IMG/VR virus record: IMGVR_UViG_3300033183_000060
Coordinates: 1-34,706 of that record
Length of the DNA stretch: 34,706 nucleotides
Source of the DNA: a virus
Reading direction: 5' to 3' (one strand)
Numbering within the stretch: the stretch's first letter is position 1; every line of letters begins with the position of its first letter. A program made the translations under genes and the position numbers. Positions 6,101 to 31,252 of the stretch are shown here, in pieces. Below the pieces are notes generated by a model. That model saw nothing but the letters and a program-made list of their open reading frames with translations. It ran no database searches and was not told the origin of the DNA.

Positions 6101-8344
6101 ACCCTCTGTTAAGTTTTGCAGCTTAACAAAGTTTATAGCTTTGTTTCTACCAAGCTCTGTTATTATTTCTCTAAGCTCCGTGTTGTTTTTAAATCTTTTA
6201 CCGTCAGCTTTAGCTTGTGCTTTTTCATTTAAAAGCTCGATAGCTCTAGTTGACAGTTTATTAAATTCTTTTCTATCAGCCTCTGTTAAACCTTGTTGTG
6301 TTATGATATCTACCACTGTCGTAGAAACAGATGGTGCTTGTAATACTAAAGTTGTTAAAGCTGTAGATGTAAATAAGTCAGCATCTATACCATCTAAAAA
6401 ACCTACTCTTTCATCTCCGGCTACATATTTACTAGTTATATTTTGAGCAAGAGCTGTAACTGTTTCTTCAGCTTGCTCTATAGCACTCCCTTTTACTAAT
6501 TGTTTTAATACTTTTTTAGACTGAGATCTCCAACCAACAGTGCCAGCTAAACTTCTACCCATATTAGACCATTGATCTAGAACTCTGATAGAACCTAGTC
6601 TTTCAGCTACAGTTTCTGTAACACCATAAAGTATAGCTGTAGATAATTTTTGTAGCTCTGTTAAGTTTACACTTTGTTCTAAATCAAAAATACGTTCATC
6701 TAAAAGTGTTTTTTCTACGGGATCAATTGTTTTTTCTCTTTTATCGTATAATCCCTCTACCCCAGGTGCTCCGTACAAAGCTATGTTTGCTTGTTCCTGA
6801 GCTATGTCCATTTGAGCATGCTGAGTTGAACCTGAGTAAGTACCCATTAATCCAGCAGTAGCTGTTTGTACCGTTCTAATAGCACCGAGAGCTGATCCAC
6901 CAGCCTTTAATATGTTACCAATTATACCGCCCGCCCAAACTGTAGCTATATTAGATGCTTGATCCGCAAAAACGTTGCCTGCTAAGTTGCCAAAATCGGA
7001 TATGCTTTTTACGTCTTTTAATTTAGGAGAAGGAACAAATTCCGCAACGTGTTTTTGAAATTGTTCATTAGCAAATTTAGAAGAAGCATCCGCCATTTTT
7101 CTAAATGCTTCGGCATTACCTTTATCCTTGCGTATTTCAGCTAAGTAAGCTAAACCTTCTAAACCTAAAGCTCCTAGCTTACCACCAGCCACAAATAAAG
7201 AAGTTTTTAATTGATCTACGCCTTTTTGGTATAAGTCATAATTATAAGCGGCAGCAGTAGAGGCAGCTGATATATCACCAAAGTTATCAAATATGATCTT
7301 GTTGTTTTTAAACTGCTCTTCTAATTGATCTGATTTTCTAAGTAGATCTAATCTATCTTGCTCGTAAGAATACTCGTTGCCAAACTCATCTGTTTTAACT
7401 TTGTTTAAGTCTTCGTAAGCTTGCTTATAACGTTTAAATATAGAGTTTCTTTGATTAAGCATGTCATTTCTGGTCTGCTCAAACTCATCTGCTTTTTCTT
7501 GATTACCAGCAAAAATATTAGCACCAACCATGTGAGATACTCTTTCTAGTTTAGCTAGATTTTCATTATCCCAGTCTTGTATTTCTTTTTCTAAAAAACT
7601 TAAGTTGTCAAGATTTTCTTTGTGTCTTTTATCATACAACTCAGTTTGTTTGTTTATTTCGTCTACAGTTTTACTGTAATCAGAAGCTATTTGTTCTGAT
7701 TTTTTAGCATAAGCTTTAAAGGCTATCCTTTCTGATTCTGGTAAATCTGTAAAGAACTTAGTTGCTAAACTTTCTTTTTGTTGCTGTATATATTTAGATC
7801 TTACGTTAGCAGGTAGATTTTTAAAAAAACCTACTGGATCTTGTAAATAATCTTGGTATTGATTGTATTTTTGTTTACCTAAGTAGCCTTCTACATCTAT
7901 TTGCTGAACCACGCCTGGAGCACCTGTTCCAGCGGAAATGGTTATTCTAGGCATCTCATCTAACTTAAAGTAAGACTCACCAAAATATTCAGCTTGTTGT
8001 TCTTCTGTTGTAAATAAAGCTTGTTTTATTTTTTCAGTAGCTTCACCATAAGTTATTTCAGCAGGTTTAGTTTCAAATTGTGTACCTACTGCTCCTATAC
8101 CAGGGCTAATTGTTAGTGATTTTTTTGGCTCAGCTTCTATTTTTTGTAATGCCAATGAAGTATCTTCCGGCTTGGATACCGTATCGGGTGCTGTAGTTTC
8201 TTCCACAGGCGCACCCGTAACCTGCGGTTGTTTCTTTCCCGCTTCAGCAGATGTTTTGTTATATTCTTTTATAACAGAAGCAATATTAGCCTCTGATTCT
8301 CCAGCATCAATCATGCGCTGAACAATAGCTTCTAATTCATTCAT
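107..8344 (-). CDS. Giant internal virion / ejection protein (2745 aa) with HEXXH metallopeptidase-like motif
   Basis: The largest gene of the window and the third of three consecutive putative ejection proteins, the place held by the long core protein gp16 in T7-like phages. The N-terminal ~350 residues are charged and helical. Hydrophobic alanine/glycine-rich stretches occur around residues 375-400, 460-520 and 655-690, suggesting membrane-active segments. HELTHW at 925-930, followed by a glutamate pair at 990-991 (LAEELIMAYAD), resembles a gluzincin-type zinc peptidase site (HEXXH plus a downstream Glu). A segment near 1955-2010 looks faintly like an acetyltransferase fold. Residues about 2320-2560, rich in aromatics, Gln and Arg with a hydrophobic segment near 2525-2545, resemble the C-terminal associated domains of phage polyvalent proteins. 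The end is strongly basic (KSRRGKR). No lysozyme or RNA polymerase motif was recognised. Such proteins travel in the capsid and enter the host with the DNA; all domain assignments are by eye. Confidence 0.75.
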   Translation of the reverse strand: MNELEAIVQRMIDAGESEANIASVIKEYNKTSAEAGKKQPQVTGAPVEETTAPDTVSKPEDTSLALQKIEAEPKKSLTISPGIGAVGTQFETKPAEITYGEATEKIKQALFTTEEQQAEYFGESYFKLDEMPRITISAGTGAPGVVQQIDVEGYLGKQKYNQYQDYLQDPVGFFKNLPANVRSKYIQQQKESLATKFFTDLPESERIAFKAYAKKSEQIASDYSKTVDEINKQTELYDKRHKENLDNLSFLEKEIQDWDNENLAKLERVSHMVGANIFAGNQEKADEFEQTRNDMLNQRNSIFKRYKQAYEDLNKVKTDEFGNEYSYEQDRLDLLRKSDQLEEQFKNNKIIFDNFGDISAASTAAAYNYDLYQKGVDQLKTSLFVAGGKLGALGLEGLAYLAEIRKDKGNAEAFRKMADASSKFANEQFQKHVAEFVPSPKLKDVKSISDFGNLAGNVFADQASNIATVWAGGIIGNILKAGGSALGAIRTVQTATAGLMGTYSGSTQHAQMDIAQEQANIALYGAPGVEGLYDKREKTIDPVEKTLLDERIFDLEQSVNLTELQKLSTAILYGVTETVAERLGSIRVLDQWSNMGRSLAGTVGWRSQSKKVLKQLVKGSAIEQAEETVTALAQNITSKYVAGDERVGFLDGIDADLFTSTALTTLVLQAPSVSTTVVDIITQQGLTEADRKEFNKLSTRAIELLNEKAQAKADGKRFKNNTELREIITELGRNKAINFVKLQNLTEGELKKVFELQGEIESLRKKYAEIGEAGIEDTEQAYADKTKIISDKINDLQKQKEVLLKDVFLKKYLGKDFNERTDDVRMQEDQIARVNYDLGRKNFEGRIIQGVVGSKAFFGLSTLEEIDNLEISETKKKRLKDVFNDLSTGNKFGKYEKGLGLIYNENAILQGVIANEPYAKAAYMHELTHWAMDNGKINRKKLIAAADELVEKINSTPNVDKVSLEKFIGRVKQYKQFAKKVGLTKETLAEELIMAYADLKRQGFLDNNTIERSLNLKNLFRDVLNSISPAMHMYSNLNTAEDIARFIDAFDEKVKKNRLRASAPEEYELEQKVKSDAFSLGQKELNDRIDNLVGKKDENGNYQWASKEEFQGSEEFINVYDKIINGNLIDPLIRRGIEGDVIYGKPIERFIEDVKDGLTGTLMRFDPSQNNSLIGFINKQLAFRKGDVSNQYKKEFGEFGTTSIDIEAGEVGSLRELEAEDQAFDEAIDIQEEVIDETKGLIIPGVEVLGKETNQELIDEITDMYADLVLDGKNYKTLPRLATKYVAEKAGVPEAKIVDPKKNLSSGEYSAAANFLASIADTYIKILPEGAITQEAASEALKGTSTGVPKNVLNFAYNKNEERFKDPSGLFVFEKIKDLTRDQFLDAIGLNPDGSVKPGVTGRSKESQTTKGLLNLLDRIITNTAVRVVGGEMGMSMNTQLDIRSGTVDGVYSLNVPYKQAAKDFAKFTDAAVSKLNDYGLGDQAQRVKDLSNAMRTSDGPSGLQNFFLDVLKPHNEFVGLAMRLVPDNIFGFRRNISIAKAAFQHTIRANAAGAAYLDAKGNRLIDVEWKEAKKHKAFKYNSNSNDTTDNLSDIAKSLISNGELNMLIGVDFAKSKIISPKTRELVKQFDADVKGIAPYNVSGINSKNWQSQMDKFDSAKWKKGITLTNRILQSIIIDITNHFDPAINKNSTQEKFDQWLGYAINIYQGTTNDSNGFRKLSLVDVDKSYMYSYSEKNKRANALIGEHVPTNVDSMADIMIDNLFKRRISLVIPTVYIIPEIDSKAKDSKTAGLKNANDVSAVDNFLANRRALKRNQGRIIRYNKPGTLFAEKTKEENFADILDQIDQQAFDQQMTYSLNTAVKVDVEQIDDNNFIGEFKVSDINYRMNFTVNLGEDFWMGYEGKYDGLEEKLKIPKGTVNNLRIASLSFAKQSEIKDEDSDDFEYTYEITGDAAKGKVSQFTVLASVINAAKDLVKQTNVDAVNFTAAEESRGQLYHKMSRFFAKEIGWYTHSVYVDGSGIDSRSTSHTIYNPEIVLKDSKLTQEERQDWRINGLYSLGSLETKFAGMISIKDPRITPSQKLDLSTAKNLAAKRKKRFDVINPAANDFEGLMYPLLAKGKLGEEQYEWMQKNLFEPYGQATYRLNNTRQRVARSLKKIEKENKQLFKKLKKDSGFGGFTFEQALRVWMFSKIDKTPSGVDEDTQKALVTIVKNNPDIEELGYELSGILPMKEFWVDPDPETWQIDSIRTDVINAIEKVARKQFLGEWKANIDEIFSKNNMNKLTAAFGEEYMDALKDMLYRMETGSSRPEGMNKQMNVFMNWVRGSVATTMFFNRRSAVLQQISNVNYLNWGDNNPIAAAKAFANQKQYWTDFVYILNSDYLKERRGGLKTDINAAELAEAAKKHGYKGVLSKMLQAGFLLTQFGDSLAIATGGSTFYRNRINTYLKQGLSKEEAERKAFIDFQEISEETQQSARPDRLSQQQTNIIGRTFLSFQNTPMQMTRLAVRAGKDLLAGRGDAKENVFKMLYYGAIQSIIFSMLQTALIGDMFSVFGDDEGDDEEELRAKKKKRVINGVVDSFLKGTGMYGVAVATTKNAIIKFIEQEQRKEEGKRPDYAYVVLEVLNVSPPVGIKARNFYGALKNYEYNARYIGAAGWDLNNPAIDIGSAALDALFNIPALSTVTTMRDISAAFDEDLEVMTRLALIAGWHTWDLNLQDKELNKIKAEIKQRNKDLRKSNKSRRGKR

Positions 8345-16386: not shown

Positions 16387-16653
16387 TTATTTATATGTTA
16401 AATGATCTTTTTCTAAATAAGTTTTTAATCTATGGCAATTAGCACATAGCGTTCTTAAATTAGATGGTTCATTGTTTTTTTTGTTACCATCGATGTGGTC
16501 GACATCTAATTGACACTTGTGTAGCGAAATAAATCCACATTGATCACATTTGTCTTTTTTATATTTTCTCCAAGGCCTTGTGTTTGATCTACAGGCTTTG
16601 CACTTTTTTCTTCCGTTTTCAGCTTTATTACCGCACTCAACACAAAACTTCAT
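16387..16653 (-). CDS. Free-standing HNH homing endonuclease, 88 aa
   Basis: A compact zinc-binding HNH nuclease. Cys pairs at 4/7 and 18/21 form an N-terminal zinc knuckle. Cys36/Cys39 with Cys70/Cys73 frame the HNH beta-beta-alpha core. The catalytic signature is LDVDHIDGNKKNNEPSNLRT (about 49-68), with D52-H53 as metal-binding and general-base residues and N61/N65 downstream, closed by LCANCHRLK. It lies between the terminator after the 246-aa gene and the first ring-protein gene (2-bp gap), in the middle of the structural module. That placement is typical of a selfish homing gene spreading among related phages. Neighbouring genes are intact, so it is not inside an intron or a disrupted gene. 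Nickase or double-strand cutting and the target site cannot be told from sequence. Confidence 0.88.
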   Translation of the reverse strand: MKFCVECGNKAENGRKKCKACRSNTRPWRKYKKDKCDQCGFISLHKCQLDVDHIDGNKKNNEPSNLRTLCANCHRLKTYLEKDHLTYK

Positions 16654-17529: not shown

Positions 17530-18939
17530 TTAGTTGAATAATACGAAGTTGTTTGCAGCTTGTACTACTAAACATCTTTCAGATAAGTAGTGTACTTGCA
17601 TAGCGTCAAGTCCGCTAGTTTGTGCACCACCAACTGATCCAACGATCCAAGACTTCATGCGACGATCATCAGCTTCAGAAGCACGGTAACGTACGTGAAG
17701 GAATGGACGCTTGATGTTTTTACCAAGAATTTGATCGTATACTGAAGAAGTTCCAGCAGGTACAAGTACTCCACGGATATCAAAAGTGCTAGATCCGTCA
17801 GATTCAACAGCTCCACGAGTAGAAGCATCGTTTAGATATTTCCAGTCAGTTTTATAGAAATCATAAGATCCACGACGGAAACCTGAGAAACCTAGATTAA
17901 GTGCCATGTCCTCAGAGTTGTTGAAAACTCCGTAAGAAGTACCACCTGAACCATAAGAGTTCTGAGCAGCAAGCATGTCATCAATAACTAGTGAAAGAGA
18001 ACGATTAGCAAAAATAACGTTTTCTTCAATAGCACCTTGCTTATCTAATTTCTTAAGCATAGCGTCGAAATCAGCAAGCGCGGTGTTAGAAGCGGTTACT
18101 CCAGCATCATAGTGCCCACGATCTTCGATAGCAGCAAATAAACCTTCAGTTCCTTCAGCTTCAGTAAGGTCGTCGTTACCAGAAGCTTTTTCAGCCTCAA
18201 CTAGCGCCATTTCTAAGTAATCTTCGAAACGCTTACGAGTATCTCCTTCAGCTTTTAGGTACCATAGGTATCCTGATTGACCAGCTTCACCAGTTACTTC
18301 AACCCATCCAATTTGAGATGCATCAGATCCAGAGATTTCATAAAAATCTTTAAGGATGATTGGTTTGTTAGTGTAGCTTTGGAATTGTGGAGCTACTGCT
18401 TCGTTCATTCCGTTAACTCCTTTACCAAATTCAGTACCAAATACAAAGATAGTGATACCAGATCCAGCAGTAAGTCCAGCGGTTACTAATCCAGCTTTAC
18501 CGTAAGCTTTAACAGTAATGCTAGTAGCAGAAGTGTCGTGATCGCTAACAAAAGCTTTAGCTGTAGTAGAACCGTCAGAAATAACGATAGTTTGGTTAGC
18601 TCTGATAGCGTGACCAGATGGAAGACCAGAAATAACGTTTGTTCCAGAGTTTGTTCCAGAATCAGCAGCTAGTGTGAGACCGCTGTAAGAAAGGTGTAAT
18701 CTACCTTGTTCTGACCATACAACTTGATCAGAAGTCATTGGCATTTCAGCGCCAACCATTTTAAGGAAACCACCGATAGAGCGATCTCCGTATTTTTCTA
18801 CTTCAGCTTCGTAAAGCTCTGGTAGATATTGTTGTGCCCAACCTGCAGTAGCACTTGATGTGAAATCAATGTAGTTTCCAGGTGCGGCTTGTTTAATTGG
18901 AGCAGGTGTAACTGTTCCACTGCCTAATGTAATAGCCAT
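17530..18939 (-). CDS. Major capsid protein, 469 aa
   Basis: Located after portal and scaffold genes and followed by a terminator, the standard position of the main head protein. Residues 1-75 (GNYIDFTSSATAGWAQQYLP; EAEVEKYGDRSIGGFLKM) resemble the N-arm and E-loop region of HK97-fold capsids of marine and crAss-like podoviruses. A Thr/Ser/Gly/Ala-rich beta segment (about 90-170) looks like an inserted surface domain. Residues about 215-260 (GYLWYLKAEGDTRKRFEDYL) form the predicted spine helix. The C-terminal part (RPFLHVRYRASEADDRRMKS and following) is the expected P/A-domain end. Codon choice appears more G/C-ending than in surrounding genes, consistent with very high expression. The leader between scaffold stop and this ATG is only 20 bp and A/T-rich, without a Shine-Dalgarno motif. 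The HK97 fold is inferred, not computed. Confidence 0.85.
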   Translation of the reverse strand: MAITLGSGTVTPAPIKQAAPGNYIDFTSSATAGWAQQYLPELYEAEVEKYGDRSIGGFLKMVGAEMPMTSDQVVWSEQGRLHLSYSGLTLAADSGTNSGTNVISGLPSGHAIRANQTIVISDGSTTAKAFVSDHDTSATSITVKAYGKAGLVTAGLTAGSGITIFVFGTEFGKGVNGMNEAVAPQFQSYTNKPIILKDFYEISGSDASQIGWVEVTGEAGQSGYLWYLKAEGDTRKRFEDYLEMALVEAEKASGNDDLTEAEGTEGLFAAIEDRGHYDAGVTASNTALADFDAMLKKLDKQGAIEENVIFANRSLSLVIDDMLAAQNSYGSGGTSYGVFNNSEDMALNLGFSGFRRGSYDFYKTDWKYLNDASTRGAVESDGSSTFDIRGVLVPAGTSSVYDQILGKNIKRPFLHVRYRASEADDRRMKSWIVGSVGGAQTSGLDAMQVHYLSERCLVVQAANNFVLFN

Positions 18940-20188: not shown

Positions 20189-22606
20189 TTATCTTGGCTC
20201 GAATTGTTCTAATCCAAATCCACCAAGTGTATCAAAACCAGCAGATTCAAAGTTCTTTGGTCCTGTATTGCCTTTTCTCTGTTCAATCAAATCTGATTGC
20301 TGAGTGGCTTGTATTTTTGTTCTTTGGTCTTTTCTATCTTCTTTAAAAGACTCTTTATCTTTAATCACTTGCGATTCAAGTTGTTTAAGTTTCATATTCA
20401 ACTCAAATTCGTGATACATTAATTGTTTTTTGATATCAGCTTCTCTCTCTAATTTTTGTAGGTCAAGTTGAGCTTTTACCTGCTCTAATTGAGCCTTACT
20501 CTCTGTCAATGCTTGCTCTTTTTGCATTTCAGCTTGAGCAGCGGCTTGAGCAGCTTGAGCATTAGACTCGGTTTGTGCTTGAATGTTCTGAAGCTGAATA
20601 GCTCTATCTTCTTCTGACTTCTTTTTTCTTCTTAATTTTAATAGTTGATTAGCGAGCTTAATATTTTTAATTTCTCTTACATCGATAGCATCTTCAAGAT
20701 ATATTTGGTCTCTTTGTAATGCTACTTGAATATTGTTTTCAAGAAGTTGTTTTTCTTCTTCATCAGGAGCTAATTCTAAGAAAATACCAAAATCATGTAA
20801 ATGCAGTTGAGATACTTCTTCGAGTGTACCTACGTTAAATTTACCTATACCCTGTATAAAGGCTTGTTTAGTATTACCGTATTGTAAAACATCAGATATT
20901 CTTAAGCAAATAGCTTCTGCTGTTTTTAAAGTTAAATAAAGTCCTGATTGTAAAACGTGTCTTGTTGCTGTATTTGAGTTTGCAGCGGCTAATTTTTGAA
21001 TACCTACTAATGCTTTTTCATCAGGCATGCTACCATCTCTAGCTTCATTAAGACCAGTAACATCTCTCATCATTTGTAGATAATAGTTGTACGAGTTAAT
21101 CAAACTAGCTATTTTAGCATTACCACCAGAAGATTGTAGCTCTTGTATAGGCATTCTACCGTGGTTAAACTCTCCGTCTTGTGTCATTGATCTACCAATA
21201 ACAGATCCAGTTTGGAAATACATGTTTAATGCTTCCTGTGGATTATAGTTTGTTCCGTTACCTAAATCAATTTCAGCAATACCATCTGCGTCAAGATAAA
21301 CTCCATCAGGTACCATACGTGATAATACTTGTTGAAGTTTTAAGTGTGTTAGCTGAATCATATCAGCAAAAGAAGTCATTCGACTTACTAGTGACTCGAT
21401 TTTACCTTTGTAAATTCTTGGAGCCACAATATTGTAAGACATATTAACCTTAGTCGTATCTGACTTAGGTCTTGTCATATTTTCTGCGAGTTGCCATTTA
21501 AGGATCTTATTGTGCCCAATAATCTTTGCGCCTTCATATAATACCTCAATCGATCTATTGACTTTTTCAAATCTTGATCTAGCATCTTTTGGTGGGTTGA
21601 ATTTGTCACTTTTTTTAATAGCTTTTTCAGCCCCGGTTGCAGTTTGCTTTATTTTATATACTTGGTTTTGAAATGTTTTGTATTCAAAATATAAAACATA
21701 AACGTGATTAGTATCTTCAGAAGCTGATGAGGCAAAGCTTTTATTATAAAGCATTGCATTACTACCAGTACCTTCTATTTCTTTAATATCTTCTTCTGTT
21801 AATCCTGGAAATTGTTTTTTAAGATCAACAATACTTACTCTACGAACTTCACCTACGTAATATAAATCATCAAAGTAAGGTGATTCAGTGTATGAGTAAA
21901 CAATATCAGAAGGATCTACATATTCTAATTTAATACCTTCAGACGTATTAAAGCTATTTTTACAAGCCGCCATACCAATAGTAACCAAATCATAATCTAG
22001 TCTCTTTTTTAGTAAATGATACTTGTTATAGTCTAATACATTATTAATAGCTTCTTCTTCAGCAATTTCAATAGACTGTTTATAGTCTAGCTGCATGTGG
22101 AGCTGTAGTTCTTCAGAAGAGTCAGGTAAGTTATTTTGATCAGTTCTAAACATGTTAATACCGAACTCTTGCTGAACTGTTTCTAATAATTGCCTATTTT
22201 GCATATCAGACATAATACTAGAAACATAATCTGTTTTTTCTTTTATAGCGGCTGGATCCTGCGAGTAAGCCTTGATGTCAAAGGTTCTCTCTCCGATACC
22301 ATTTACAACTATATCAACAAACTTAGGTATAATTGGTACAGGCTTCCAGTCTAAATTAAGATAAGATAAATCACCATTAATAGATAATTCATCTTTGTAT
22401 TTTTGTATAGATTGTTCCCCTCTAGCGTATAATCTTAGCCTATGGAAGTTATCTCTATTAGCGTAATATCTTACAGCTCCTGAGTCTCTTTTAAACCACT
22501 CACCTTCTATAGCTCTAGCAACTTCTAGTCCATAAGAGTGATTTGCTTTTTCTTCATCACTAACCGATTGGCTAGGAAATATACCTGTTGGTAATATTTT
22601 TGACAT
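20189..22606 (-). CDS. Portal protein, 805 aa
   Basis: The gene starts directly after the terminase stop (TAG followed by ATG), as is usual for terminase-portal pairs. Residues ~40-120 (YYANRDNFHRLRLYARGEQS; LDWKPVPIIPKFVDIVVNGI) carry the pattern I recognise from portal proteins of crAss-like and marine podoviruses. The central region (about 200-480) has the mixed alpha/beta stem and wing. It is followed by helices around RDGSMPDEKALVGIQKLAAA (about 530-550). From about 660 to 770 the protein is a long Gln/Ala/Glu/Lys-rich coiled coil (QAQTESNAQAAQAAAQAEMQ), likely part of the crown/barrel projecting into the head. The portal dodecamer is the entry and exit gate for DNA and the docking site for the large terminase. 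Length is at the long end for portals because of the coiled-coil tail. Confidence 0.88.
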   Translation of the reverse strand: MSKILPTGIFPSQSVSDEEKANHSYGLEVARAIEGEWFKRDSGAVRYYANRDNFHRLRLYARGEQSIQKYKDELSINGDLSYLNLDWKPVPIIPKFVDIVVNGIGERTFDIKAYSQDPAAIKEKTDYVSSIMSDMQNRQLLETVQQEFGINMFRTDQNNLPDSSEELQLHMQLDYKQSIEIAEEEAINNVLDYNKYHLLKKRLDYDLVTIGMAACKNSFNTSEGIKLEYVDPSDIVYSYTESPYFDDLYYVGEVRRVSIVDLKKQFPGLTEEDIKEIEGTGSNAMLYNKSFASSASEDTNHVYVLYFEYKTFQNQVYKIKQTATGAEKAIKKSDKFNPPKDARSRFEKVNRSIEVLYEGAKIIGHNKILKWQLAENMTRPKSDTTKVNMSYNIVAPRIYKGKIESLVSRMTSFADMIQLTHLKLQQVLSRMVPDGVYLDADGIAEIDLGNGTNYNPQEALNMYFQTGSVIGRSMTQDGEFNHGRMPIQELQSSGGNAKIASLINSYNYYLQMMRDVTGLNEARDGSMPDEKALVGIQKLAAANSNTATRHVLQSGLYLTLKTAEAICLRISDVLQYGNTKQAFIQGIGKFNVGTLEEVSQLHLHDFGIFLELAPDEEEKQLLENNIQVALQRDQIYLEDAIDVREIKNIKLANQLLKLRRKKKSEEDRAIQLQNIQAQTESNAQAAQAAAQAEMQKEQALTESKAQLEQVKAQLDLQKLEREADIKKQLMYHEFELNMKLKQLESQVIKDKESFKEDRKDQRTKIQATQQSDLIEQRKGNTGPKNFESAGFDTLGGFGLEQFEPR

Positions 22607-24817
22607 CTATTTTATTATTTTTGAAGTATATCCTTTATTATCGTATTTTTTAAATCCAAAGTTTAGAACTCTTGTTGTTCTTTCCTCGTTAGGTGCATAC
22701 AGGTGTCTGTTACAAGCCATAATGGCTAGACCAGAACTTATTGCCGCATCGTGTACTGTTCTTTTATTTATATCAAATTTAGCCCAGTCATTAAGTGTTC
22801 TATTAAAGTACATGTTACCATAATCTCCTTCACCGTTAATTCCCACGTACTTCTGTATATAACTCTCTATTGCAGCAGCGTGCGCTTGTTTAATGTCTTC
22901 GCCTGAATTTGGTATACCACCTATTTCTTTTTCTGTAGCAGATAGCTTGTTATACGTTTTATCAGGTCTATTCATTGAGTAACCTCTATAACCTCTACGT
23001 TTTAAATAGTAGAGTAATCTTGGTTTGTTATTTTCTGCAAGTAACGGCATACCATAAAAAACTAACGCCATTAATATATCCTCAAAAAACATTTCAGCAG
23101 TCTGAGGTCTTGCAACATATTCTAAGAAAAAAGTACTAGGCGGAGCATCCTCCATGCTGTATTTTGTAAGACCATGTAAAGAACCTTTAGATCCCCTACC
23201 ATCTACCGTACCCGATATATCATAAGGGTCACAGCCAAAAGCACCAATATGTTCGTTCCCAGGATAACGTATACCACCTCTTATTTCATATTTGTTTTGT
23301 AAATGTAATGGTGGAACCCAAGAAATTAAAAACCTACCGTTTTTATCAGGATTAAAAGTAACCTTAGTGTCTTTTATACCGTTCTCCCATTGAAAACCAC
23401 CTTGAGTAACTAAACCATTATACTTGGCTTCTTCATTAAAATCTATTTGCTCATAGATTTTCACAAGATTAAATATACTATTTTTAGTTTCGTCTCTAAA
23501 TGCGTGCTCTTCTGTTCTTGGGAATTGTCGGTAAAATTCATTTAAAGCATCTTGATCTTCTTTTAAACCAGCAGCTTCATTTTCCCAATGCTCTATTACT
23601 CCAACTTCAATACTCTCTCCCAACGGTCCTTCAACTGGTTCTGGTGGTGTATCGAATACAGGTAATCCAAAAGAATCAATGAATCCCTCGTAGTTCCACT
23701 CCATAGGAATGAACAGACTATATAGTCCACTGCGAGTTTGTCCATTGCGGTTACGTTTTGTGACGTCTGAATCATTGTAAAGCTTTTTAAAATTTTCTCC
23801 ACCTTTGTCCAGCGCATTGGATGTTGAACCCATCATACATTTACCAATGATACGACTACCTAGTCTAAGACACGTTTTTGTTACGCGCCAGTTATTTAAT
23901 ATATTGTCAGGTCTCTCCCATTTACCACTTTCATCATGTACTAGCAATGCTAGTTTTTCACCATCGTACGAGTTGTCTCCCGTGTTTTTCCAGTCGATCG
24001 TCGTGTCGAGACCCTCCATGATCTCCCTCTCTCTGTTTTGTATAGACTTCTTCGTGAGTTTCGACGCGGGTACTCTATACGCGAGTTCCGATTTTGGACG
24101 ATCCATACCGTCTTGTATAGGCTTAAAAAAGAACGGGTAGTTGATTGATATTGGTACAACTTTGTCCGTAAACATCTTTTTAGCATCGGCTCCAGATTTT
24201 GACAATATACCAAATCTTGCATCTGATGTAATTGTCGCGAGGTTAACGGTCTCTGAGCTTGACATAAATGAAAAGCCAGATCGTCTATTTTTGAGGTAAC
24301 ACATGCCGTAGCATCTACTATCAGCCTTGCATGCTTCCCAGAATATAAAGAATAATCTATTTGCTTCCCTAAAGTCTGGGTGCCCAACATCAATCTTGGT
24401 CCACTGCAAGTACATATAGTGAGTGCCAGTAATATAAGTAGGCTCATCTTTATTAATGAACCAAAAACCGTTTTCACGCCTATCAAATTCTTCTTCAATA
24501 TAGTCTTCCCACTTTTCTTTAAACTCACTAGGTGTATCTCTCCAATCAAATATAGTTTTTACTCTATTTAATTCCTTAGGATAATCAAAAGGTATCCAAC
24601 GTTTTTCTTGATTTACGTAAACATCCTCTTGTTTTGGCAATGCTATACACAAGTTTTGTATCTCGTATATTTCACCAATCTCACCAGTCTTGCTTATAAC
24701 TACCAAATCGTGTTCTTTATTGTAACCGTACTTCCAAGCTTTCTTCTTGTTCATACGATGTATGGTAGTCAGTTTCACTGGTTCTACAACCTTATATAGT
24801 GTTTGCTGATAAGCCAT
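22607..24817 (-). CDS. terL: Terminase large subunit (packaging ATPase/nuclease), 736 aa
   Basis: The motor that cuts and pumps phage DNA into the prohead. The N-terminal ATPase domain contains an atypical Walker A-like loop YLKNRRSGFSF at about residues 173-183 and a Walker B, LALLVHDESGKW, with D295/E296 as Mg-binding and catalytic acids. An adapter-like TSNALDKGGENFKK (about 336-349) fits ATPase motif III. The C-terminal RNase-H-like nuclease has acidic residues in GAFGCDPYD (D530, D533) and VHDAAISSG (D690). The start ATG overlaps the previous stop (TAATG) and is preceded by AAAGGAG, the clearest Shine-Dalgarno sequence noticed in the window. A 160-bp stretch in the middle of the gene (23961-24120) is unusually G+C- and CpG-rich. 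Similarity is strongest to crAss-like and marine Bacteroidota phage terminases, by eye. Confidence 0.92.
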   Translation of the reverse strand: MAYQQTLYKVVEPVKLTTIHRMNKKKAWKYGYNKEHDLVVISKTGEIGEIYEIQNLCIALPKQEDVYVNQEKRWIPFDYPKELNRVKTIFDWRDTPSEFKEKWEDYIEEEFDRRENGFWFINKDEPTYITGTHYMYLQWTKIDVGHPDFREANRLFFIFWEACKADSRCYGMCYLKNRRSGFSFMSSSETVNLATITSDARFGILSKSGADAKKMFTDKVVPISINYPFFFKPIQDGMDRPKSELAYRVPASKLTKKSIQNREREIMEGLDTTIDWKNTGDNSYDGEKLALLVHDESGKWERPDNILNNWRVTKTCLRLGSRIIGKCMMGSTSNALDKGGENFKKLYNDSDVTKRNRNGQTRSGLYSLFIPMEWNYEGFIDSFGLPVFDTPPEPVEGPLGESIEVGVIEHWENEAAGLKEDQDALNEFYRQFPRTEEHAFRDETKNSIFNLVKIYEQIDFNEEAKYNGLVTQGGFQWENGIKDTKVTFNPDKNGRFLISWVPPLHLQNKYEIRGGIRYPGNEHIGAFGCDPYDISGTVDGRGSKGSLHGLTKYSMEDAPPSTFFLEYVARPQTAEMFFEDILMALVFYGMPLLAENNKPRLLYYLKRRGYRGYSMNRPDKTYNKLSATEKEIGGIPNSGEDIKQAHAAAIESYIQKYVGINGEGDYGNMYFNRTLNDWAKFDINKRTVHDAAISSGLAIMACNRHLYAPNEERTTRVLNFGFKKYDNKGYTSKIIK

Positions 24818-25092
24818 TACTTAGATCTCCTTTCAGCAAAACCTTTAAAAGATTTATTTGTTTCTTCTTTAGGTTTATTTTCTAGCATAGCTTTTTCTTC
24901 TTCAACTCTATTGAGTATTTCAAAAGCATCAAATATTGCTAGCTTTTTTGTAGCAGCAGCGTTTTTAAGTCTGTCTGCAGAAACATCTTCTTCTGTGTTT
25001 GTTATAATCTTTTCTTCAGCTACACGTATTAGTTCTTCAACCGCTTTGTAACCAGCTTGGATTATATTCTTTTTCGTTTCCTTGATATTCAT
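24817..25092 (-). CDS. Possible small terminase subunit, 91 aa
   Basis: A small, wholly helical, charged protein immediately upstream of the large terminase, whose start overlaps this stop by one base (TAATG). The pattern is two or three amphipathic helices (IIQAGYKAVEELIRVAEE; DRLKNAAATKKLAIFDAFEI) ending in a basic tail (KSFKGFAERRSK). Small terminase subunits bind the packaging site and are often encoded just before the large subunit; size, helicity and position fit. No helix-turn-helix is obvious, so this is only a proposal. The start ATG lies 56 bases inside the end of the preceding 201-aa gene, in another frame. No other Met is available until residue 69, so the overlap is probably real. 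Confidence 0.5.
   Translation of the reverse strand: MNIKETKKNIIQAGYKAVEELIRVAEEKIITNTEEDVSADRLKNAAATKKLAIFDAFEILNRVEEEKAMLENKPKEETNKSFKGFAERRSK
24827..24833 (-). promoter_or_regulatory. Strong Shine-Dalgarno site for terL
   Basis: On the minus strand AAAGGAG is followed by nine bases (ATCTAAGTA) and then the terL ATG. Most other genes here begin after plain A/T-rich leaders, as is common for Bacteroidota, so this canonical ribosome-binding site stands out and fixes the terL start. Confidence 0.6.
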
Positions 25093-25863: not shown

Positions 25864-26325
25864 TTATTTTTTAAATGCGCTTGTCGCTTTTTCGGTAGTA
25901 CGTCCACCAAAATATGCTAAAACAACCGCCATCATTACTTTTTCAAAAGTATCATTCCATGTTGTACCTATATTAAAAGGTATTGACTCGACACTATCTA
26001 AAAGACCTGCGAAACTAAAAACAACAATACACCACACTAAAACTAATGGGCGTACATTTTTAGAAAGCCACGAATCAGACATAGCATCTGCTTGCCATCT
26101 CGATGTTATTGCTTCCATTTCTTTATTTTGTTGTTCAAAAATAAGCTGTTGTAGTCTTATCTTATCTTCTTCACTAACATCAGATTTACCAATAGCAGCG
26201 ATAGCCTCAGCTGGCGTTGTCACTCCTTTTAATACGTTACCTAATGCAGGACTCGCCATTGAAGCTGCGCCGAATAAAAGTTTACCTACAGTGGTTTCTG
26301 CAAATTTCTTTTTTGGCTTACTCAT
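25864..26325 (-). CDS. Holin-like membrane protein (3-TM holin type), 153 aa
   Basis: The N-terminal region (about 10-50) has Gly/Ala-rich amphipathic segments (TVGKLLFGAASMASPALGNV). It is followed by a charged helix, and then SWLSKNVRPLVLVWCIVVFS opens a membrane segment (about 84-107). A second membrane segment lies near 125-140 (VMMAVVLAYFGGRTTEKA). The 'sWLsknvRPlvl' motif and the ending GGRTTEKA are characteristic of the three-TM holin family that includes gene-transfer-agent holins. The protein would permeabilise the inner membrane to allow lysis. I chose the internal ATG at 26325 rather than the upstream in-frame ATG at 26355, because it overlaps the stop of the preceding tiny gene (TAATG) and the extra ten residues lie inside that gene. 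Endolysin and spanins are not evident beside it apart from a small lipoprotein upstream. Confidence 0.75.
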   Translation of the reverse strand: MSKPKKKFAETTVGKLLFGAASMASPALGNVLKGVTTPAEAIAAIGKSDVSEEDKIRLQQLIFEQQNKEMEAITSRWQADAMSDSWLSKNVRPLVLVWCIVVFSFAGLLDSVESIPFNIGTTWNDTFEKVMMAVVLAYFGGRTTEKATSAFKK

Positions 26326-26438
26326 TATTTTTTCTTTTTCTTTTTTGGAACACAATTAGGTACTTTACGTCCTCCTTTTTTCTTTGTCCCGATCATTTCG
26401 TATCCTGACCAACAAGGTGACTTCTTACTTTTTTTCAT
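26325..26438 (-). CDS. Tiny basic Cys-containing protein, 37 aa
   Basis: A very short ORF fills the gap between the holin-like gene and the 87-aa gene. It encodes MKKSKKSPCWSGYEMIG followed by TKKKGGRKVPNCVP and a run of six lysines. The core 'PCW-x-GYE-x-IGTK-x3-G-x-VPNCV' is a motif I have repeatedly seen in phage proteins, either free-standing or at the end of larger head proteins. The two Cys (positions 9 and 29) flank a predicted beta-hairpin. The motif makes coding very likely despite the length. Translation may start at this ATG or at an in-frame ATG three codons upstream (26447). The stop overlaps the holin start by one base, indicating coupling. Function unknown; the strongly basic composition suggests binding nucleic acid or membrane. 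Confidence 0.6.
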   Translation of the reverse strand: MKKSKKSPCWSGYEMIGTKKKGGRKVPNCVPKKKKKK

Positions 26439-26440
26439 AG

Positions 26441-26704
26441 CTACCATTTTACTTTATCAGCCCAGTATGCAGCTGACATTTTACCTTTTTTAATGTTCTT
26501 TTTGTGGCGAGCCTTAAAGCTCTTACGTCGCGCTTTAGACTTTGAATCACTTTTCTTTCCTGCGCCACTAACTCCTTGTTGCCCAAATCTAATAATCTTC
26601 TCTTTTCCATTTGCACACGCTTTTACGATATGTGACTTGGTCTTATGACCAGGTGTTCTTTTAGGCTTGTTGCAAGCCATTTTAGATTTGTCAACTTTTG
26701 CCAT
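26441..26704 (-). CDS. Small basic protein of unknown function, 87 aa
   Basis: A strongly basic protein (MACNKPKRTPGHKTKSHIVK, with Cys11 and Cys30) containing FGQQGVSGAGKK (about 41-52), a Lys/Arg/Ser-rich stretch SKARRKSFKARHKKNIKKGK (about 56-75), and the ending SAAYWADKVKW. The ending 'ARHKKNI-x-KGKMSAAYWADKVKW' is highly distinctive; I recall the same ending in many phage and giant-virus small proteins, where it is annotated only as a domain of unknown function. It looks like a nucleic-acid-binding or virion-packaged basic protein. The gene overlaps the end of the upstream lipoprotein gene by 14 bp. An alternative start at Met9 is possible. Coding confidence is high because of the recognised pattern; the role remains unknown. 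Confidence 0.7.
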   Translation of the reverse strand: MAKVDKSKMACNKPKRTPGHKTKSHIVKACANGKEKIIRFGQQGVSGAGKKSDSKSKARRKSFKARHKKNIKKGKMSAAYWADKVKW

Positions 26705-26963
26705 CGATGTTTTTAGTTGTTTTTTTGTTAATAATCTTTTTACCTCTACGTTGCACTATCTTAACGTAGTCAGTCGTGTATTTTTTTTTAATAACGATCT
26801 CAAGATCATCATTAGCATAAACTTTCTGAATAACGTTGATAATAGGATTATCCTCGCTAGACTCTAACCATTGAGTCCTAGTTGTAATATCTTCAGAAGA
26901 CACGACTCTTGCAGAAGAACAACTAGCCAAAAAGAAAGCTGAAATAATTAATAGTTTTTTCAT
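26691..26963 (-). CDS. Small lipoprotein with signal peptide, 90 aa
   Basis: The N-terminus MKKLLIISAFFLASCSS is a classical lipoprotein signal: two lysines, a hydrophobic core and a lipobox LASC with the lipidated Cys at position 15. The mature part is short, charged and ends very basic (KIVQRRGKKIINKKTTKNI). It would be anchored to a membrane facing the periplasm. In a phage, close to a holin-like gene, a small lipoprotein can be an outer-membrane spanin subunit (lysis) or a superinfection-blocking lipoprotein. The lack of a partner with a matching transmembrane anchor nearby leaves this open. The gene overlaps its neighbours on both sides (4 bp with the winged-helix gene, 14 bp with the 87-aa gene), so it belongs to the same operon. 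Confidence 0.7.
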   Translation of the reverse strand: MKKLLIISAFFLASCSSARVVSSEDITTRTQWLESSEDNPIINVIQKVYANDDLEIVIKKKYTTDYVKIVQRRGKKIINKKTTKNIDGKS

Positions 26964-27400
26964 CTTTCTTTATCTTTAATCATATCATCTATAGCCTTGT
27001 TGTATACCTTGTCGCTATAGCTTTTATTTTTATAAAACACATTAGACTGGGTAACAGGTATATCTTCTTGTCCTAGCAAAATTTTATATATCCTATTTAT
27101 CATGTGTTTAGTTTTGACTGAAACTTTGTAAATAGCGTACTTACTATCTTTTCTGTTTCTTTCTCTCCAAACATCAATCCAGCCATTACTACGAAGTCTT
27201 TCCCAACGATGCTTATCCCAAGTGTAGGTGTAAGCACCGTTGATAAAATCTTCTCTTGTAAATAGACCTTTGCAGTCTAAATATATAAGTAACTCTAAAT
27301 CAGCATCTTTTAAGTCATACTGTCTACAAGCCCAACGCCTAACTATCCTATAGTACTTAAGGATTTTGATGTCCCTTAAATCCTCTGGAGAAAGTCTCAT
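26960..27400 (-). CDS. Putative winged-helix DNA-binding protein, 146 aa
   Basis: A mostly helical, basic protein. Residues about 10-110 follow a MarR-like/winged-helix order: a first helix (ILKYYRIVRRWACRQYDL), a hydrophobic helix LELLIYLDCKG, FTREDFINGAYTYTWDKHRW as helix-turn-helix with a recognition helix, a WIDVWRERN wing-like hairpin rich in basic residues, and KYAIYKVSVKTKHMINRIYK as closing strand and helix. No catalytic motif is visible. It overlaps the GroES stop by 4 bp (ATGA) and the lipoprotein start by 4 bp. A regulator of late transcription or a packaging-site binding protein are both possible; such a protein could even be the real small terminase. The fold is a by-eye proposal. 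Confidence 0.55.
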   Translation of the reverse strand: MRLSPEDLRDIKILKYYRIVRRWACRQYDLKDADLELLIYLDCKGLFTREDFINGAYTYTWDKHRWERLRSNGWIDVWRERNRKDSKYAIYKVSVKTKHMINRIYKILLGQEDIPVTQSNVFYKNKSYSDKVYNKAIDDMIKDKER

Positions 27401-27654
27401 TCCACAAGGACAACGTCTTGTTGTCGGATAACGTGAAATAAAGTATCATCAAGCTCAATGCCGTGCCCAGCGTGACGATCGTAATAGATAATATCACCTT
27501 CATTTAAACCTTCAGTTAATTCACCAATACTGATTATTTTACCTTTTAAGTACCTAATATCTTTTGTATGGTTATCTGTTATAATAAGACCGTTTGATTT
27601 TTTAGGCTCTTGTTTTATCTTGTTTATGATTATGTAGTTATTGACTGCTTTCAT
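27397..27654 (-). CDS. groES: Co-chaperonin GroES, 85 aa
   Basis: The cap of the GroEL chamber. The N-terminal strand MKAVNNYIIINKIKQEPKK matches the GroES barrel start. The mobile loop NGLIITDNHTKDIRY (21-35) contains the hydrophobic triplet LII (23-25), equivalent to IVL in E. coli, which contacts the GroEL apical domain. YLKGKIISIGELTEGLNEGD corresponds to the G-x-V-x-x-V-G and x-x-G-D strand region, and the protein ends with FHVIRQQDVVLVE, the closing strand. At 85 aa it is shorter than bacterial GroES (about 97), mainly by a shortened roof hairpin. Its start lies 17 bases inside the end of groEL, so the two are translated together and in EL-ES order, the reverse of the usual host operon order. 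Retained loop and strand signatures argue it is functional. Confidence 0.88.
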   Translation of the reverse strand: MKAVNNYIIINKIKQEPKKSNGLIITDNHTKDIRYLKGKIISIGELTEGLNEGDIIYYDRHAGHGIELDDTLFHVIRQQDVVLVE

Positions 27655-29212
27655 TTGCTCTCATGTTTGAAATTACACAATCAGCAGATATAATAGTTGA
27701 AACTACACTGGCTGCATTTTTTAAAGCTGTTTTAGTAACTAACACTGGATCAATAATACCAGCTTTAATCATATTCACAGGCTTACCTGTTACAACATTA
27801 ATACCCCAACCTTTTCTATACTTAAAATTTTCAGGTACTTCTATACCAGCATTTTCTAAAATAGTAGAAAAAGGAGCAATTATAGCTTTTCTAAAAACAT
27901 GCTCAGCAGCGTTATTAACTTTCATTTTCTGAGCTGCATTAAGTAGTGCTACACCACCACCGGGAACTATACCTTCTTGTAAAGCTGCTTTAGTTGCGTA
28001 GATAGCGTCTTCAACTCTATCTTTCTTTTCTTTTAGCTCTACTTTGCTGTTTGCTCCCACGTATATAATACCTACAGAACCAGAAAGCATAGCTAGTCTT
28101 TGTTCTAGCTTTTTCTTAATAAAAGGATTTTGTTCTTCTTTTATCTTTTGCTCTACAGTCTCTATTCGCGTTTTAGCGTCATCTGAGACACTTTCTATAG
28201 TCAAGACAGTGTTTCTGTTGTCTGTAACAGATTTAATCGCCTCTCCAAGTACAGATGGATCGATAAGATCTAAGTCATCACCTAATTCTTCGTCGATGAT
28301 TTTAGCACCTGTTAGCGCGGCTAAATCTTCTATAGTATCTCTTTTAGTAGATCCAAAACCAGGAACATCAACTATATTTACTTTGATATTACCTTTTACT
28401 TTGTTTGTTAGCAAAGCAGAATATGGTTGTTGATCTACTGAAGCTACAATTAGTAAACTTCTTTTTTGCTTAATTACATGTTCTAAGACTGCTTGTATTT
28501 TTCTAATACCAGTAATAGGTGAAGCTACAATAAGTACAAAAGGATTTTCAAGCTCAGATTTTTCTTTATCCTCTGTTGTTGCTAAATGCGGCGATTTTAA
28601 AGGTGAATCAAACTGAACACCATCAACTATATCAAAGTAGGTTTCTTCCGACTCAGACTCCTCCATTAAAACAACACCGTGCTTACCAACCTTTTTATAA
28701 GCGTTAGCTATAATATTACCTAAAGCAATATCATTATTTGTAGATATTGTGGCAACATCGGTAAGCATATCGTCTGTAACTTCTAATTTGTTCTTATCAA
28801 GATACTCATTAACAAAATCAACACCTGTCAAAAAAGCTTGTTGTAACTCTCTAGTGTTTGTTGTTGAGTCTAAAGCATCCATAGACTTTTTTAGAAGTGA
28901 GTGAGCAAGGACGGTAGATGTTGTTGTACCGTCACCTGCTTCTTTCACTGTATTTTTGGCAGCTTCCTTGATTAATGTTGCACCCATATTTTCTACAGGG
29001 TCGTAAAGTACGATCGATTCGGCTACAGTAACACCGTCTTTAGTTATGACTGGCTTACCTAGAGCATCTTCGTAAATTACACACTTACCAGAAGCGCCAA
29101 GAGTAGATTTAACTGCATTAGCAAGCTTTTCTACTCCACTAATTATTTTATCACTGGCTTTTAAGCCAAAAGATAGATCTTTAACAATCTCACTTGGTTG
29201 ATTATATTCCAT
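27638..29212 (-). CDS. groEL: Chaperonin GroEL (phage-encoded), 524 aa
   Basis: A full-length group I chaperonin subunit. The equatorial domain shows ITKDGVTVAE (D59, ATP metal site), GDGTTTSTVLAHS (D94) and VEDAIYATKAALQEG, whose D402 corresponds to catalytic D398 of E. coli, followed by VPGGGVALL (418-420 glycines). Hinge and apical domains are of normal length (about 190-375), with NIVDVPGFGSTKRDTIEDLA and LTGAKIIDEELG matching the apical core. Two departures: the phosphate loop is TLGASGK (37-43) instead of TLGPKGR, and the Gly-Gly-Met C-terminal tail is absent (ends MRANESSQ). It forms the folding ring that with GroES would assist folding of phage structural proteins. It is strongly diverged from host GroELs, suggesting long residence in phages. 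Leader is A/T-rich, no Shine-Dalgarno. Confidence 0.95.
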   Translation of the reverse strand: MEYNQPSEIVKDLSFGLKASDKIISGVEKLANAVKSTLGASGKCVIYEDALGKPVITKDGVTVAESIVLYDPVENMGATLIKEAAKNTVKEAGDGTTTSTVLAHSLLKKSMDALDSTTNTRELQQAFLTGVDFVNEYLDKNKLEVTDDMLTDVATISTNNDIALGNIIANAYKKVGKHGVVLMEESESEETYFDIVDGVQFDSPLKSPHLATTEDKEKSELENPFVLIVASPITGIRKIQAVLEHVIKQKRSLLIVASVDQQPYSALLTNKVKGNIKVNIVDVPGFGSTKRDTIEDLAALTGAKIIDEELGDDLDLIDPSVLGEAIKSVTDNRNTVLTIESVSDDAKTRIETVEQKIKEEQNPFIKKKLEQRLAMLSGSVGIIYVGANSKVELKEKKDRVEDAIYATKAALQEGIVPGGGVALLNAAQKMKVNNAAEHVFRKAIIAPFSTILENAGIEVPENFKYRKGWGINVVTGKPVNMIKAGIIDPVLVTKTALKNAASVVSTIISADCVISNMRANESSQ

Positions 29213-29940: not shown

Positions 29941-30681
29941 CTATTGATTACCGCCTCCTGGAGTTGGGAAGCCTCCGCCACCGCCTCCACCGCCTGAACC
30001 TGCTGCTTGTGTAACAGTTACAGTATGTAAAAGATTATCGCTTGAATAACAGCTACCGCTAATGTAAATATCAAAAGTCAAAGACCTGCTATTTGTAGTG
30101 CTGTTGGTTTCTATGTTTAAGTATCTTATTGTATTACCTTCTGAAGCAGTAAAGCTAATATTAGCACTTCCACTACCACCAGTAGTATCTGAACTAGTGC
30201 TTAATCCTGCCCAAGTGACTGAAGTAATCTCCATATAGATAATAGCCCCTGAACCTTGTGGTGTATATTCAAGGTCAAAATCCCATCTGAAACTTTGTCC
30301 TGCTGCTGCTGCACTAATAGACGTACCTGTAAAACAAGAGGTATTGTAGTTAAGCTTCACACAACCTAATTCTCTATTTCCAATATGCCCCCTAAATTCA
30401 GACATAGCATAAGGTGTGGCTAAATAACCACTACCTTGTTCTAGGTTAGGGTCGTAGGGCGCATCAACAGTAAAACCATTTACAGTCCACTCGTTAGTCA
30501 TAGGTGGACAGAAGTTATAATCACTACCATTAGCGTTACCTCCACGCATAAGGTCGTACATAGATATATTAGTTAGGTTCACAGTAGAACCACTAACGTA
30601 ACCATTGACTCCTACGTCATTGTATCTGCGTTCTTTTGCTACGCCTAGCATTGATATTTGTCCACTACTTGGTACTGCCAT
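29941..30681 (-). CDS. Fibre/adhesin-like structural protein with glycine-rich C-terminus, 246 aa
   Basis: The opening MAVPSSGQISMLGVAKERRY is a conserved start found on many phage fibre and structural proteins (it likely binds the virion). The middle (about 20-110) contains a Tyr/Asn/Gly-rich region with several Cys. Residues about 115-225 form beta-strands ending HTVTVTQAA, reminiscent of the last strand of BACON/Ig-like domains common in Bacteroidota phage fibres. The end is GSGGGGGGGGFPTPGGGNQ, a poly-Gly region like those of phage tip adhesins. It starts 17 bases before the end of the endonuclease gene and precedes the 112-aa gene. The likely role is carbohydrate or surface binding at the tail tip. 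Domain calls are by eye. Confidence 0.65.
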   Translation of the reverse strand: MAVPSSGQISMLGVAKERRYNDVGVNGYVSGSTVNLTNISMYDLMRGGNANGSDYNFCPPMTNEWTVNGFTVDAPYDPNLEQGSGYLATPYAMSEFRGHIGNRELGCVKLNYNTSCFTGTSISAAAAGQSFRWDFDLEYTPQGSGAIIYMEITSVTWAGLSTSSDTTGGSGSANISFTASEGNTIRYLNIETNSTTNSRSLTFDIYISGSCYSSDNLLHTVTVTQAAGSGGGGGGGGFPTPGGGNQ

Positions 30682-31252
30682 CTAATCTAGCTTTTAGTTC
30701 CTCAATCTGTTTATATTCCCATTTGTAACCAAAGGCTTGTTTAAACTTGCCCTTGCAACATCTAATGATATTAGTTGAAGTTCCATTGAAATATCTAGCT
30801 GCATCAATAATACCATCCCATTCCTTAATAAAGTTACCATCTAAATCCATTTGAATGATTGGTGACTTTTTTGCTTTTGACATCTTTCGCTTTGAACTTT
30901 CAGACATCTTCTTGCCTTTATGTGCTTTAGAAAGGTTTTCTTTGTGTTTTTTTGTTGGGGTATATTTTCTACCAACAGTACCCTCGCCACCATCAGTCAG
31001 GTTGGCAAGGCTTCCAGTTTTAATATCTATCCTTCCATATAGCTTAATAAACTCAACCTCCTTTTCTTTGGCTTGTTCCATACTTATATCATCCATAAGT
31101 ATTTCTACTTCGTAGTCAGTCTTGGCTACTATTCGTTGCCATAGGATATTCCTGCAACGCTTGGTTGTAGCCCTATACATATCGTTATCAGATATACCTA
31201 TGTAAAAAGGTTCGTTCTTGTCAAGTCTTATATGTCTGTAAACGTAAGCCAT
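30665..31252 (-). CDS. Free-standing GIY-YIG homing endonuclease, 195 aa
   Basis: The N-terminal GIY-YIG nuclease domain starts at YVYRHIRLDKNEPFYIGIS (3-21), with the two strands VYRH and YIG that name the family. It continues with RCRNILWQRIV and the catalytic-region Glu in MEQAKEKEVEFIKLYG (about 58-73). SLANLTDGGEGTVGRK (about 81-96) closes the domain, as usual in this family. DNA-binding modules follow: KKHKENLSKAHKGKKMSESS (about 101-120, NUMOD3-like repeats) and a C-terminal NUMOD1-like unit QMDLDGNFIKEWDGIIDAAR ending YFNGTSTNIIRCCKGKFKQA. The gene lies exactly between the fibre stop and the next fibre-like gene (ATG directly after the fibre TAG), a typical homing-gene insertion that leaves neighbours intact. 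Confidence 0.9.
   Translation of the reverse strand: MAYVYRHIRLDKNEPFYIGISDNDMYRATTKRCRNILWQRIVAKTDYEVEILMDDISMEQAKEKEVEFIKLYGRIDIKTGSLANLTDGGEGTVGRKYTPTKKHKENLSKAHKGKKMSESSKRKMSKAKKSPIIQMDLDGNFIKEWDGIIDAARYFNGTSTNIIRCCKGKFKQAFGYKWEYKQIEELKARLDGSTK

Follow-up and report, generated by a model that had tools for sequence, protein, structure and literature searches.

The window analysed here is a viral record of 34,706 bases from IMG/VR, with a G+C content of 34.9%, in which the minus strand carries the long reading frames (Table 1). In the order of transcription, a fibre gene carrying an S74 endosialidase chaperone domain is followed by small genes, groEL, groES and a gene for a 146-aa protein. 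Next come a lipoprotein-like gene, a gene for a basic protein, the holin gene and genes for proteins of 72, 201 and 91 aa, and then the terminase, portal and 399-aa genes, the gene for a 50-kDa virion protein, more structural genes and that of a 2745-aa protein. The groEL-groES pair is therefore flanked by the fibre gene on one side and by the holin, terminase, portal and virion-protein genes on the other, all on one strand, in agreement with the structural-operon setting proposed in an initial annotation. That annotation had also placed the EL-ES pair at 27397-29212, which is right, and had left unstated that both genes lie on the minus strand. Family searches gave no convincing match for the 91-aa protein, and a Pfam search with the 2745-aa protein was without a match. 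A Shine-Dalgarno-like motif precedes just 3 of the 26 window genes; a scarcity of such motifs is usual in Bacteroidota. No near-identical phage DNA was found for positions 1-25000 of the window, and PADLOC returned no match, which leaves a role in defence without support.

Table 1. Features of the window in order of transcription.
Feature	Coordinates	Strand	Basis and remarks
Putative homing endonuclease gene	30665-31252	-	weak NUMOD1 match; looks inserted among structural genes
groEL, 524 aa, group I chaperonin	27638-29212	-	PF00118, phrog_5725, NF000592
groEL/groES overlap, 17 bases	27638-27654	-	coordinates
groES, 85 aa, single Cpn10 domain	27397-27654	-	PF00166, phrog_3188
146-aa protein, MarR-like winged-helix fold	26960-27400	-	predicted fold; 4-base overlap with groES
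Small lipoprotein-like gene	26691-26963	-	lipobox LASC; near holin; position alone makes it an outer spanin candidate
Holin (GTA_holin_3TM, phrog_3427)	25864-26355	-	profile match; between the two chaperone blocks
Predicted tandem Cpn10 (Cpn20-like) second co-chaperonin, 201 aa	25037-25642	-	phrog_13932, predicted fold; near terminase gene
91-aa protein just before TerL	24817-25092	-	small terminase candidate, position only
Terminase large subunit (TerL)	22607-24817	-	phrog_6681
Portal protein	20189-22606	-	phrog_6547; weak P22-portal match
Virion structural protein, 50 kDa	17530-18939	-	phrog_13704
HNH endonuclease gene	16387-16653	-	
2745-aa virion-operon protein	107-8344	-	weak PHROG matches only

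The GroEL matched PF00118 with 194 bits (E 5.5e-57; cut-off 34.3), phrog_5725 (E 2.6e-138) and NF000592 (460.5, above the cut-off of 397), and fell below the TIGR02348 equivalog cut-off of 582.1. The GroES matched PF00166 with 41.4 bits (E 1.5e-10; cut-off 21.1) and phrog_3188 (E 3.7e-14). A scan of viral contigs gave at least 589 relatives of the GroEL, and 80 of these were examined for gene order, overlap and residues. In all 80 the order was EL-ES with overlapping genes; together with the E-values, this recurrence excludes a chance origin of the pair. Since the genes overlap, by 1, 4, 14 or 17 bases in the 80 relatives, groEL and groES are probably translationally coupled. In a phage collection 270 records matched the GroEL, none above 60% identity; some of them, such as Salmonella- and Acinetobacter-derived records, are simply bacterial sequence of the ordinary kind. 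Even with some host-derived entries among them, these numbers contradict the view that phage GroELs are rare. The records labelled Acinetobacter phage MD-2021a and the phage-labelled Salmonella contigs carry an ordinary bacterial groES-groEL with chromosomal neighbours.

The residues for nucleotide binding and hydrolysis are intact in the window GroEL, so that the initial reading of a full-length protein with catalytic Asp402 and nucleotide motifs stands. Asp52, Asp87 and Asp398 of E. coli align to Asp59, Asp94 and Asp402 of the window, identical in 80 of 80 relatives. Because these catalytic and nucleotide residues are invariant, with no loss in close relatives, the ATPase appears to be under selection. 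Other parts of the protein have diverged. The segment at E. coli residues 420-445 counts 19 aa in 80 of 81 sequences, seven shorter than the 26 of E. coli, and that at residues 455-480 is shorter by 4-6 residues in nearly all of the phage GroELs. The C-terminal tail has 2-8 residues in the phage clade as against mostly 15-28 in bacteria, and the GGM tail is absent. Glu434, Arg452 and Val464, which are ring-ring contact residues in E. coli GroEL, are not conserved in the phage proteins, and the Arg197-Glu386 bridge is lost. The loss of the inter-ring segments and of the tail suggests that ring pairing is weakened or absent, and that the phage GroEL may work as single rings. Single rings are no more than a suggestion, as the control phages disagree: the segment at 450-482 is also short in the double-ring EL, and the deletion at 415-450 is absent from the single-ring OBP. 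The apical groove also differs from that of bacterial GroEL, with L234Q in 80 of 80 relatives and changes at Tyr199, Tyr203 and Val264, and substrate and lid binding may for this reason be altered.

The mobile-loop triplet LII of the GroES, within GLIIT, aligns to the IVL triplet of E. coli, which bears out the intact triplet described initially. In the clade the roof segment is only 8-9 aa long compared with 12-17 in bacteria, so that most of the roof hairpin is gone, and the mobile-loop segment is longer than the bacterial one by 1-2 residues. In having lost most of the roof this GroES resembles T4 gp31, a phage co-chaperonin without roof loops (PMC6318259). The loop of gp31, however, is 6 residues longer than that of GroES, and gp31 uses the GroEL of the host whereas the window phage has its own. 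We also examined a possible charge-swap co-evolution between the centre of the GroES triplet (Glu in 36 of 87 sequences) and GroEL position 259 (Lys in 36). It was rejected, since Lys pairs with Ile, Val or Leu and not with Glu; the leftover correlations probably follow ancestry.

The initial annotation had spoken of a complete set of chaperonin genes. GroEL and GroES are both present, but the description understates the genome, which encodes a second co-chaperonin. The 201-aa protein is predicted to have a tandem Cpn10 fold. Its residues 1-180 match phrog_13932 (E 2.7e-20), as do all 31 aligned members of the tandem family, and its predicted model has a pLDDT of 77. In Foldseek searches of the PDB the best folds, with alignments of about 205 columns, were those of Chlamydomonas Cpn20 and Cpn23, and many GroES chains came next; Cpn20 ranked first among solved folds (E 1.7e-4). 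Among viral models the protein matches over its full length a "Chaperonin cpn10" of Cellulophaga phage phi18:3. Profiles of the two halves match phage or bacterial GroES with E-values, pairwise only, of 4e-6 and 4e-8. The window protein has no match in Pfam or NCBIfam, Cpn10 included, and the tandem profile gave no convincing direct match to sequences of solved chains; the homologs in phages phi13:2 and phi38:1 match PF00166 in their second half. Domain 2 has a shortened loop and no clear mobile-loop triplet. In several isolates annotators have labelled the protein co-chaperonin GroES. By sequence search, the tandem gene was found in 77 phage-collection records, the same in number and kinds as for the MarR-fold gene. 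A literature search on Cpn20 with bacteriophage found no paper on tandem phage co-chaperonins, a weak result, since the search covered little of the subscription literature.

The 146-aa protein, with a mean column identity of 80% in the clade, is encoded by the next conserved co-directional gene after groES in 79 of 80 relatives; in 44 loci it directly abuts groES with a 4-base overlap, and in the others there is inserted sequence in between. Its top PDB folds belong to the MarR family (E 4e-3, TM 0.41-0.49). It has no Pfam match, and its profile found no convincing direct match among the sequences of solved chains. In the elemo and Manatee genomes the homolog runs convergent to the chaperonin pair, and in phi38:1 it lies far from GroEL. 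The protein may regulate the chaperonin block.

In a tree of 52 rows, in which long branches leave the order among isolates uncertain, the window GroEL falls in a phage-only clade (support 97/93), a placement that the initial annotation had named as support for long residence in phages, and not inside a single host genus. This clade joins the GroELs of elemo, Panino, Manatee Spring, phi38:1 and immuto with support 100/98. The phage group nests on the Bacteroidota side, the nearest cellular rows being Bacteroidota (88/88); the GroELs of Bacteroides phage DAC16 with a huge phage, and those of Vibrio phages, are separate captures. Its origin probably lies in an ancient capture from a host of the Bacteroidota, and the gene is now purely phage-borne. 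We looked for a host or prophage origin among cellular genome contigs and dropped it, as every close relative there lies in a MAG bin and the bins belong to taxa with no relation to one another (Maricaulis, Alphaproteobacteria, Euryarchaeota, Rickettsiales, Sphingobacteriales and others). Six bins were searched: most contain ordinary chaperonins as well, and one contains the phage-type gene alone. Given the unrelated taxa and the ordinary chaperonins in most bins, the most plausible reading of these relatives is that they are viral contigs placed in the wrong bins, and such contigs of the window group form a contamination trap for GroEL surveys.

The EL-ES pair itself is already known as belonging to a published group of GroEL-bearing Flavobacteriaceae phages: GroEL was reported in 36 group-2 environmental genomes and related to the homologs of Cellulophaga phages phi38:1/phi40:1 (Nishimura et al. 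2017, PMC5332604). The window phage is related to phi38:1, the elemoviruses and the Manatee Spring phage (MW202828), with which it shares TerL (37-64% identity), GroEL, GroES, the tandem GroES and the MarR-fold gene. Its GroEL is just 35-40% identical to those of the Flavobacteriaceae phage isolates. Elemo and Manatee have the order EL-ES, whereas phi38:1 has ES, a small gene and then EL; the MarR-fold gene is co-directional in the window. What is new is the double-length, tandem second lid in the same genomes, beside the DNA-packaging genes. Viral GroELs are also known from virioplankton metagenomes, with a subunit gene order tied to GroEL phylogeny and with genomes above 70 kb (Marine et al. 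2017, ISME J, as summarized in PMC9611531), and that summary mentions neither a tandem lid nor ring-interface changes. The giant-phage chaperonins EL, OBP and AR9 work without a co-chaperonin (PMC9598537). The window GroEL shares one shortened equatorial segment with EL and OBP; unlike all three it is a group I chaperonin with its own GroES, and the encoding of this GroES in overlap with groEL argues against membership of their co-chaperonin-free type. A further likeness is to chloroplasts and apicoplasts, whose Cpn20, with two tandem GroES-like domains, is found together with a Cpn10 of one domain (PMC5780408). The sequence similarity of the phage tandem protein to Cpn20 is at the limit and its second domain has a reduced loop; we claim no common origin.

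We consider it likely that the window encodes a dedicated phage folding machine for virion proteins, in a podovirus-like phage of marine Bacteroidota. The phage GroEL and the roof-reduced GroES would be made together from their overlapping genes, and late in the infection cycle virion or packaging proteins would fold inside the phage-controlled chamber, comparable to the action of T4 gp31 on host GroEL. The tandem co-chaperonin would probably act on this chamber too, either in place of the other lid or mixed with it. The position of the genes and the analogy with gp31 point to late proteins as the substrates; from the sequences we infer that folding would be ATP-driven, and we likewise infer the pairing of both lids with the phage GroEL, the clients and the ring number. 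The 50-kDa virion protein, by its position the putative major capsid protein, is only a candidate client. An ordinary GroEL cage would be large enough for this protein and relatives of the phi13:2 type manage without GroEL, two points that speak against a need for a phage barrel. The altered residues of the apical groove and the lack of a clear mobile-loop triplet in domain 2 of the tandem protein also count against the reading.

It is a real possibility, although not the one we lean towards, that the tandem co-chaperonin is instead the core morphogenesis factor, capping host or phage GroEL for a protein of the head or of packaging whose gene lies next to its own, and that GroEL-GroES is a later, broader addition. 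In Cellulophaga phage phi13:2 both lids are present, whereas a profile search of the whole record found no GroEL, and the tandem gene occurs in 17 of the 18 viral records searched. In phi38:1, elemo, Panino, Manatee, phi13:2 and the window clade it lies at TerL or one small gene away, whereas GroEL-GroES moves around the genome between phages. The older part of the system is probably the tandem lid, since its gene keeps its position by the terminase and the GroEL-GroES pair varies in both location and order. On the other hand, outside the window clade and elemo the domain-1 triplet is not well conserved, and Gundel has a terminase but neither lid nor GroEL, which means that the tandem protein is not essential to this packaging type.

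The adjoining terminase gene, an extended segment after the GD motif of domain 1, the degenerate loop of domain 2 and the missing family match of the window protein would also agree with a protein that puts the Cpn10 fold to another use, as an adaptor or structural part of the packaging machine, and is no longer a co-chaperonin. We find this doubtful, given that the domain-1 loop triplet LILNT hardly varies in the window clade and that all checked genomes with the tandem protein also encode a single GroES. It is highly improbable that the GroEL is a host gene acquired recently in an auxiliary role, or that it stems from an artefact of binning. The protein does group near Bacteroidota GroELs and has a few matches in cellular bins, but tree and synteny contradict such an origin: it is at most 40.5% identical to 27 bacterial representatives, its phage-only clade is deep, its relatives lie on hundreds of viral contigs, and the host-like synteny that the initial annotation had named as a sign of cellular origin is absent.

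Single and tandem co-chaperonins could form a mixed lid of seven domains (for example three tandem and one single) on a single-ring phage GroEL. We regard this arrangement as unlikely; if true, a chloroplast-like Cpn10/Cpn20 system would have evolved independently in phage, specialised for virion proteins. Isolated phages cover all parts of the system (phi38:1, elemo, Panino and Manatee, with GroEL and both lids), the lids without the barrel, and none, so that culture experiments can address why a phage should bring a chaperonin of its own. A barrel combined with two dissimilar lids, of which one is tandem and tied to the terminase gene, represents a natural experiment on the choice of clients by co-chaperonins.
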